DNA of 64,000 bases from Cyanobacterium stanieri PCC 7202 (GTDB taxonomy: Bacteria > Cyanobacteriota > Cyanobacteriia > Cyanobacteriales > Cyanobacteriaceae). The stretch is from NCBI GenBank assembly GCA_000317655.1, contig CP003940.1:2365547-2429546 (forward strand), read 5' to 3'. Below are positions 37,106-40,919 of this stretch, one piece after another (within the stretch, counting starts at the first letter, position 1; each line of letters begins with the position of its first letter). The notes beneath the pieces are model-generated. The model saw nothing but the letters and a program-made list of their open reading frames with translations, was not told the DNA's origin and searched no databases. Position numbers and translations under genes: made by a program.

Positions 37106-39376
37106 ATGGCACCCCCTATTGTTACTCGTTTTTTAATTTCTCTTAATGAACATAAATGGTTAGGTACTATTATTTTTGTTGTAATTACAGGAGGTTCTTT
37201 TCTTTTTACCCTTGCCCCAGAGCCAGAACCACCGCAAGATCAAATATTGGCATTTGGTCGTCTATCTTTTACCCGTCCAGGCAGCACTTTTACTGTTGCA
37301 GGAGAGCAACTAACCACAGAAGGTAGGGCAACAAGAATTCAAGATCTCATGTCCGAACAAGTAATTGAAACCATTGCCAATCGTCTTGACTATAACCTCA
37401 GACAAACAGAAAGAGTAGTGGCAGATTTAATTTTGGGATTGCCGGAAGAAGATCTCAACCAAGCCAGAAGAGGGAATACTGTTCCCCTAATCACTTTTCG
37501 ATATGATGGAGGAAGAACACCCGAAGAGTCGAGAAGGGTTTTGCAGGTGTTTATGGAGGAGGTTGTCAATGAAAGCTATCGCATTAATACAATTAGGCTA
37601 CAGAATAGGATCGGTGATTTAGAAAGACGACTCGATAATGTTCGAGGGGATCTTAGGGAAGCAGAACAAAATTACTATACTTATATTTCTAACGAAGGGG
37701 CTTTATTACTTTCTGTTCAAGATGGTAGTTTATTTGGAGGAATTACCAGTTCAGAACAACAAAAACGGCAATTAGACGTGTTATTGTCGGGGATTGATGG
37801 GGAAATCAGAACATTACAAGAACAGTTACAGTTAACTCCCGAAGAGGCTTATGTTTCTTCTGCATTAAGTGCAGACCCCATTATTGCCAATTTAAGGGCT
37901 TTAATTCTTCAAAATGATTTGGAATTGGAGCGATTACAACGTGACTTAAGGGACGATCATCCCACCATGGTGGAGTTAAGACAACAAAAAGCTCTCAACG
38001 AAAGGCTATTGGAAGAAAGAGGCAGAGAAGTTATTGGCACAGATAGGGTATTTCAGCCTTTGACTCGTAATGTGCGAGATGCGAGTAATTTAGACCAAAC
38101 TAGAGCACAGTTAGCCGCCCGATTAATTAATTTACAAGGACAAAGAAATGCAGTAGCAGAACAGTTAAACGCTGTGGAAGCGGTGGAAAATACCCTGCGC
38201 CAAGAGTATGAGCAATTTCCCGAAAGGCAGACTCAACAAACATCTTTAATTCAGCAAGTTCAAGCTCAAAGGGTACTTTATGAAACAATTTTTGCGGCTT
38301 TAATTGATGCACGTTCGGCGGAAGTGGAAGCTGATAGTAGTTTTACCATTGTCCAACCTGCTTTTTTGGTACGTGAACCCAGTCCTCCTGTGGCTCCCGG
38401 CACCAATCCTATTATTATTGTGGGTATTGGGATGGTGATTGGTTTTGCTTCTGCTATGGGGGTAATTTTTCTCTTTGCTACTTTGGATGAGAGATTACAT
38501 ACTCCCAGAGAGTTACGGGATTTCTTTGGGGAGAGAGATGTTCCTCTGTTGGCAGAGTTGCCCATGGTACAGAATCCTGAGCCTTTCCGTAAGTCCATGC
38601 CCATTATATTTGAACCTGATTCTCCTTTTGCAAGATTTTATGAGCGTCTTCGTAGTAATATTCGTCGTTTGGGGGGCGAAAATGCAAAGGTTATCTTAAT
38701 TTCTAGTGTGATTGCTGATGAAGGGCGTACGGTTACGGCTTATAATTTGGCGATCGCCTCGGCTAATGCAGGAAAACGTACTTTGTTGGTAGAGTTGGAT
38801 CTACGGGACAAAAATCCGGGTTCTCGCAAGTATTTCCAATTACAACCAGATCCTGCCCTCAGTAGTAATCCTGTTAGTTACTATGATTTTCAGGGAGTTA
38901 GTAATGGAGATTTAAGCTCTTTAATTCAAAGGGTGCCTGAAATACCTAATTTTTCTGTGGTGCCTAGTCCTGGTTTTCAACAACAAGCTCCTGCCATTTT
39001 GGAATCAAGCGAAATCAAGTCTTTTCTGCGCTACGCTAGGGCGCAGTATGATTTTGTGGTCATTGACACTCCATCCCTTTCTAGCTGTAACGATGCCCTG
39101 TTACTAGAGCCTTTTGTGGATGGCATTGTCTTAGTTACTCACCCTGGTAAAAGTTTACGCAATCTTCTGGGTACAACCATTGATGATTTTATCGAGGAAG
39201 AATTACCCTTGGTGGGTGGTGTTATCAATAATGTCAACTTTGAGGGTTCATTGTTGGAAACAGAAGATGACGAATCTTCTATTTTTATGGGTGATGATGG
39301 AGATGATACTTCATCTATTTTCCAGAGTAGCGTTAATAGTCAGGAGGATGATTTCAGCGACCAAAGTTTTAACTAA
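37106..39376 (+). CDS. Wzc/GumC-like polysaccharide co-polymerase with degenerate kinase domain
   Basis: The 756-residue inner membrane protein has an N-terminal helix (GTIIFVVITGGSFLFTLAP) and Wzz-type periplasmic coiled coils (about 130-390). A second helix follows (NPIIIVGIGMVIGFASAMGVIFLFATL), then a cytoplasmic BY-kinase-like domain (about 500-735). Walker A reads ADEGRTVTAYNLA, with R541 where the ATP-binding Lys stands in GEGKS/T. Walker A' is LLVELDLR (E563 for the first Asp), and Walker B VVIDTP is kept. The acidic C terminus lacks a tyrosine cluster. It probably controls chain length and export without tyrosine kinase activity. It is downstream of the Wza-like gene and overlaps the dndC stop by 4 bp, convergently. 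Confidence 0.88.
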   Translation: MAPPIVTRFLISLNEHKWLGTIIFVVITGGSFLFTLAPEPEPPQDQILAFGRLSFTRPGSTFTVAGEQLTTEGRATRIQDLMSEQVIETIANRLDYNLRQTERVVADLILGLPEEDLNQARRGNTVPLITFRYDGGRTPEESRRVLQVFMEEVVNESYRINTIRLQNRIGDLERRLDNVRGDLREAEQNYYTYISNEGALLLSVQDGSLFGGITSSEQQKRQLDVLLSGIDGEIRTLQEQLQLTPEEAYVSSALSADPIIANLRALILQNDLELERLQRDLRDDHPTMVELRQQKALNERLLEERGREVIGTDRVFQPLTRNVRDASNLDQTRAQLAARLINLQGQRNAVAEQLNAVEAVENTLRQEYEQFPERQTQQTSLIQQVQAQRVLYETIFAALIDARSAEVEADSSFTIVQPAFLVREPSPPVAPGTNPIIIVGIGMVIGFASAMGVIFLFATLDERLHTPRELRDFFGERDVPLLAELPMVQNPEPFRKSMPIIFEPDSPFARFYERLRSNIRRLGGENAKVILISSVIADEGRTVTAYNLAIASANAGKRTLLVELDLRDKNPGSRKYFQLQPDPALSSNPVSYYDFQGVSNGDLSSLIQRVPEIPNFSVVPSPGFQQQAPAILESSEIKSFLRYARAQYDFVVIDTPSLSSCNDALLLEPFVDGIVLVTHPGKSLRNLLGTTIDDFIEEELPLVGGVINNVNFEGSLLETEDDESSIFMGDDGDDTSSIFQSSVNSQEDDFSDQSFN

Positions 39377-40919
39377 CTTTCCTTGCCAAACTTCATTTTT
39401 CCCCATGTCAATTTTTGTTGAACTACTTTAACATCACCCTCTTTGACGGCATTTTTCACATCCCTAATATATTCCGCATTGGCGATCGCCTCTTCTGGAG
39501 AACGGGAACTGGTGCGGAAACACTTTTCTAGGGCTTGATATATGCCCACACGACGCACCTTGGTTAAATATTGTCTTTCGGTGTCCAATAAACGAGTCAT
39601 CAATTCAAGGTGCATGGTATCTCCTTCACACAATTCCTCGAGGGTTTGCCATTCTTCGGTACCTAATAAAGAGTTACCTGCCCCAATGCGAGGATCATTA
39701 AATTCTATTCCCATCACCTCTTGATATATACGGGGTAAACTATCATCAAATTCATGTTTTTCCTCTAGCCAAATCCTTCTAATCTCACTCAGTTCGGCAA
39801 TGGAAATTAATTCGAGATTGCTAAATTCTGGGGGGGCATTTTTCCTGACACTCACTTGTGCCTCTAATACTTTTTGTAACCAATATTCTCGCCATTGTTT
39901 GAGATAGGGACCAGGAATATTTTGCACAGAGGTTTCCCCATCTACATTACGCTCAAAAAGTTCCACTCTGCCATAGATGCGACGAAAATCCCTCTTGTCT
40001 CGATCATCTCGAATATCTAACTCATCTCTTAAATCTAATAGTGGTTGTAACCATTCTTTCTCGTCATCATTTTGAATCATCGCCTCCATGGACTTATCTT
40101 TACTAACCATGGTACATACCCAACAACCAAAACGAGAATCCCCACAACTAGGGGTTGAAGTATCCACCACCAAAGGACATTCGTTATCTGCCGTGGCTCC
40201 TCGATACATTTTGAATAAGTCTTGATTATTTCCTCCCCATGGATTTTTCCATTGCAACAGATACATCCACACTTCATCGGTGCGCCAATCTTCGATGGGG
40301 CTATAGATGTAGGAGTTTGGCAGACGGGTATTAATGTTTAATCTTTTTCTAAATCGGTTTTTTTCATGTTTTTCCATGTTCCTTTTTCTGGTGATGCTTT
40401 CGGCTTTACGGGTACCTAGCACCAAGATTACTTCTCCGTGGGTTCGTACTGTTTCACGGATAAATTGATTGGCGGGTTGAATTTTCATTCGTTCTGTACA
40501 CCAGCGGAACCCCTGACGGGGGGCAGGATAGCCTTTGCCGATGAGACATACCCAAAAGGTGTCTTTGACAGCAGGATGGGTTAGATGGGCTATAAACGGC
40601 ATATTCTGCTTTTGGGCAGATTCGTTGATGGTGTTGATACATCCTCTTACCCAATGGGATACGATGGGATTTTCCACAAAGGTATCATTGGTAATTACAT
40701 GGATGGTTTTTTTCTTTTTTTGGGGGGCAACAGGGCGATCGCACTCCAGATCAGTTGTAAAATACAGGAACTATCTTTACCGCCACTGTATCCAATAATC
40801 CAAGGCACTTGATCTTGACAATATAATTCTTGAATTTCTGCTGTTAAGAGTTCAATGTCAGTAACTAATTCATCAATGGTGCGAGGGGGAAAAAGAGGTA
40901 TTTGAGAGTTAGTAGTCAT
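39373..40919 (-). pseudogene. dndC: DNA phosphorothioation sulfurtransferase DndC, split by a -1 frameshift
   Basis: Two adjacent minus-strand frames make one DndC. The first (40919-40695) carries the PP-loop IIGYSGGKDSSCILQLIW and ends at TAA soon after KKRKKPSM. The second (from about 40707 to 39373) continues TIHVITNDTFVENPIVSHWV and includes FRWCTERMKIQP, VLGTRKAES and the Cys-rich ADNECPLVV...SCGDSRFGCWVC, all DndC landmarks. The joint is an A7 run where a one-base backward shift restores a product of about 515 residues, normal for DndC. It may be a pseudogene, a sequencing error, or a real recoding site. DndC loads sulfur for DNA backbone modification with DndA/B/D/E; none of these is in the window. 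Confidence 0.8.
40707..40713 (-). other. A7 slippery tract at the dndC frame break
   Basis: On the coding strand the frame reads AGA AAA AAA CCA, so the last A of AGA plus AAA AAA forms the heptamer A AAA AAA, in the register required for -1 slippage. A second A7 run and a C6 run lie just upstream (40715-40727). Confidence 0.5.

Follow-up and report, generated by a model that had tools for sequence, protein, structure and literature searches.

Does the dndC gene of Cyanobacterium stanieri PCC 7202, which is deposited as two pieces in different reading frames, depend on ribosomal frameshifting, has it been lost, or is it broken only in the assembly? The window analyzed here is a stretch of 64,000 nucleotides (positions 2,365,547 to 2,429,546) of the chromosome (CP003940, 3,163,381 bases), and positions are those of the window unless marked as genome positions. 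The best explanation, to which we assign a probability of about 0.9, is an otherwise functional-looking dndC that is short of one A in a poly-A run, through either an assembly undercall or a very recent deletion, and not a programmed frameshift.

Results

On the minus strand, an ATG at position 40919 opens a reading frame of 74 amino acids (40695–40919) that carries the PP-loop motif SGGKDS and is ended by a TAA at 40697–40695. Frame 0 across the joint reads CCC CCC AAA AAA AGA AAA AAA CCA TCC ATG TAA, and the −1 frame, reading ACC ATC CAT GTA ATT ACC, stays open until a stop at 39373. This 3' part of the gene (39373–40707, minus strand) comprises 444 residues counted from the joint and contains four clustered conserved cysteines; its first standard start codon is a GTG at 40677. 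The first-pass annotation had placed the PP-loop half and the Cys-rich half of DndC in different frames, and this is borne out by colinear matches to the TIGR03183 (DndC) profile, with the N half covering positions 2–47 (E 1.7e-18) and the C half positions 59–446. The C half alone scores 587.8 bits, above the profile cut-off of 290.4 (544.5 bits with the PADLOC DndC model), and the N half continues the same profile. Because both parts match TIGR03183, the halves belong to a single dndC gene that lacks one base (or has two extra), encoded in two frames in PCC 7202 rather than in one. A −1 step after AGA AAA AAA leads to ACC and joins the 71 native residues of the 5' part to the 444 of the 3' part, giving 515 residues, in agreement with the product of about 515 proposed for a step at this A7. 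In the numbering of the joined protein, cysteines 248, 259, 266, and 269 are kept in nine aligned sequences. The A7 at the joint occupies 40707–40713, and an open frame needs one more A. The C6 run and second A7 reported just before the joint are also present, at 40727–40722 and 40721–40715 (together 40715–40727), and are read in frame as CCC CCC AAA AAA A..; the same C6A7 occurs in the intact dndC of a relative (G004). Runs of this length are common, the plus strand of the window having 22 A7 and 33 T7.

The nearest dndC orthologs, those of Cyanobacterium sp. HL-69 (89% identity), G004 (88%), and G001 (84%), are uninterrupted across the joint; examples of the sequences there are CGCAAAAAAACCATTCAC, AGAAGAAAAACAGTTCAT, and AGACAAAAAAAAGTTTAC. 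The PP-loop and the C half lie in one open frame at 108 of 109 related loci, which were collected in two sets with some organisms in both, the number of independent genomes being somewhat smaller. At the remaining locus (L114, a Geitlerinema MAG) dndC is split elsewhere, mid-gene. Loci with W or F in the PP-loop were missed by the first motif scan and were scored as unbroken from frame length and sequence in a second scan. In many cyanobacterial DndC proteins (loci L073–L152) GVSWGKDS or GVSFGKDS replaces GYSGGKDS. A stop inside the dndC match of G002 proved to be merely the terminal stop. A split at the same joint was sought among the 109 relatives and found in none, and the sequence there is variable: depending on the family member, the longest run of As close to the joint measures between 4 and 9, and no heptamer is conserved. 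The region is A-rich because the loop that it encodes (K-K-R-K-K) is rich in lysine and arginine. The break is private to the PCC 7202 genome. Alignment with DndC of relatives, a check proposed in the first-pass annotation, yields an unbroken frame with no conserved A7 and speaks against programmed frameshifting.

Neither half of the gene shows signs of decay. Between PCC 7202 and HL-69, pN/pS is 0.130 for the N half and 0.115 for the C half, compared with 0.119 and 0.108 between the intact genes of HL-69 and G004; values for dndD and dndE are 0.21–0.28 and alike in all pairs. No further lesion was found in the PCC 7202 dndC besides the break at the joint. Both halves are under the same purifying selection as in intact relatives, and since pN/pS shows no decay, the C half either is still read in frame or ceased to be so only very recently. 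A long-standing pseudogene is rejected on the grounds of pN/pS values near those between intact relatives and the absence of any other break.

A genome search found dndC in single copy in the chromosome, dndD unbroken at genome position 1518584 (608 bits; cut-off 246), and dndE unbroken at genome position 403595 (123 bits; cut-off 72). The earlier statement that neither dndD nor dndE lies in the window holds, genome-wide searches placing both outside it. The description of dndC as an orphan does not hold for the genome, which carries intact dndD and dndE, both under constraint, at two further loci. The search for dndB, also suggested earlier, found no such gene in the genus Cyanobacterium. Scattered dndC, dndD, and dndE are the usual layout among relatives of PCC 7202; in HL-69 (G003), an example of a genome with positions comparable on one contig, the three genes are likewise far apart. 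They co-occur or are all absent among the near-complete genomes checked, with the exception of G032, in which dndC was not found and dndD lies at the edge of a contig. Jian et al. described cyanobacterial dnd sets as incomplete, disordered, and devoid of dndFGH (PMC8569181). Our literature search returned no mention of phosphorothioate together with C. stanieri. The dnd reading of PCC 7202 is probably best corrected to a complete but scattered dndC-dndD-dndE set, in place of an orphan frameshifted dndC. A lone DndD/PbeC-like ATPase at genome position 2303022 (L003:1501-3564), considered as a further DndD, is better called PbeC-like (867 bits with the PbeC model); no dnd or pbe gene is recognizable beside it within the 5 kb read, and it occurs in all six near-complete genomes checked.

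A survey of 864 kb of the PCC 7202 genome against 1.6 Mb of HL-69 covered 513 HL-69 ORFs with a best hit of at least 60% identity, some of them antisense shadow ORFs. Five candidate breaks emerged, of which two were judged clear by reading; the other three are in short ORFs of <100 residues. The two clear breaks are in dndC and in an AMP-binding/ACP/KS/AT polyketide synthase, and each is exactly one A short. The latter gene, which is olefin-synthase-like, is split (G000:C1:303352-312014; L168 from 3352) at an A8 at genome positions 304629–304636; at this site both HL-69 and G004 carry an A9, and their frames stay open. Its first ORF (436 amino acids) contains the main AMP-binding domain and the second matches the C-terminal AMP subdomain; the break lies inside the FAAL domain of a putative olefin synthase. 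The reverse search gave a single break in a long gene of HL-69, at G003:C1:1592809 and close to an A6; the PCC 7202 counterpart of this gene is a single 572-amino acid ORF. One-A losses in the PCC 7202 assembly are rare but present. A review citing Zhu et al. 2018 describes the FAAL for olefin synthesis in PCC 7202 as a stand-alone protein (PMC11837247). The single-A lesion probably lies behind that statement, and the published stand-alone FAAL would in that case rest on a one-base break at the A8.

Discussion

The preferred account of the locus is that one A was dropped from the poly-A run encoding the lysine/arginine-rich loop (K-K-R-K-K). The missing A would have been undercalled in the deposited assembly or lost through a very recent replication-slippage deletion in the sequenced culture; these are the assembly error and the fresh pseudogene of the first-pass annotation, and both options stand, whereas programmed −1 frameshifting, listed beside them, falls to the intact relatives and the lack of a stimulatory structure. 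If the shortfall is an error, DndC would be a normal sulfurtransferase of ~515 amino acids that provides sulfur for DNA phosphorothioation together with DndD and DndE. If the deletion is real, a 74-amino acid fragment would be made, and the Dnd system, with dndC, dndD, and dndE at three loci, would be disabled or strongly reduced. The second one-A shortfall, in the olefin-synthase-like gene, shows that the PCC 7202 assembly or strain has occasional losses of this kind. We put an assembly undercall at roughly even odds and consider it somewhat more likely than a real recent deletion, although homopolymer errors are usually few in finished genomes.

A real, fresh loss of function, in which the living strain carries the deletion, dndC has newly become a pseudogene, and the strain no longer makes phosphorothioates, is the closest competitor and a tentative possibility. 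The best explanation already contains it as one of its two forms, and in the overall verdict it carries rather less than half of the weight, a share that would in part include leaky rescue. Poly-A runs are hot spots of replication slippage, and frame breaks are rare in the PCC 7202 genome, with both clear ones located at long A-runs. Loss of dndC should be tolerated, because cyanobacteria lack the restriction partners dndFGH (PMC8569181). However, neither the dndC halves nor dndD or dndE has decayed, so such a mutation must be very recent, and, with one exception, the near-complete genomes checked have either all three genes or none of them, which also argues against it.

A real A7 with leaky, unprogrammed rescue, in which the ribosome slips by −1 on A AAA AAA or RNA polymerase slips on the A-run, so that full-length DndC is made at a level of a few per cent, appears unlikely. 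The register is exact, an A AAA AAA with CC after it could plausibly allow some unprogrammed −1 slips, a point that counts against the best explanation, and there are precedents in an E. coli study of A_AAA_AAG (PMC5009743) and in recoding on oligo-A in chloroplast atpB (PMC8254509). However, in E. coli A_AAA_AAA induces far less shifting than A_AAA_AAG (PMC5009743), selection against transcriptional slippage starts at nine As in many bacteria (PMC1088944), and activity in E. coli fell to only about 5% when one or two As were deleted from atpB (PMC8254509). The lack of downstream structure is also against it: the 77 and 125 nt following the joint fold no better than shuffled sequences (z −0.47 and −0.63) in a pseudoknot-free folding model. 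A general tolerance or use of leaky −1 slippage at A7–A8 runs by C. stanieri, giving full-length proteins such as DndC and the olefin synthase despite the broken frames, seems very unlikely; if both runs were real and the products still made, a free-living cyanobacterium would provide a natural example of rescue by slippage. Programmed −1 frameshifting, either to regulate DndC or to yield a separate PP-loop product, is rejected as extremely improbable, for although a canonical X XXX XXX heptamer is present in the correct phase (AG A AAA AAA CCA), it is conserved in no relative, the downstream folding values are those just given, and no Shine-Dalgarno-like element is visible in the upstream stretch CCCTGTTGCCCCCCAAAAAAAG.

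Comparison with known systems places the preferred reading, a dndC short of one A, as follows. Like the A-heptamers of dnaX and IS3-family transposases, the PCC 7202 dndC has a correctly phased A AAA AAA, but it differs in having no conservation, no stimulators, and no conserved short product. With the rescue of poly-A indels in Oenothera atpB it shares an indel in oligo-A inside a coding gene; in contrast, the dndC run is no longer than A7 and has lost a single A, a type of lesion for which the atpB study saw poor correction (PMC8254509). Measured against DndC proteins of TIGR03183, both halves are colinear, the PP-loop and clustered cysteines are present, and dndD and dndE are found elsewhere in the genome; the differences are the frame broken by one absent A at the joint and the scattered genes with no dndB found, the latter being alike in close relatives. 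A further match is the class of singleton frameshifted genes, the unclustered, BLAST-supported frame breaks that the GeneTack authors attribute to sequencing errors or indel mutations (PMC3711429). The PCC 7202 dndC shares with this class its occurrence in a single genome, restoration by one base, and homolog support, and nothing notable sets it apart.
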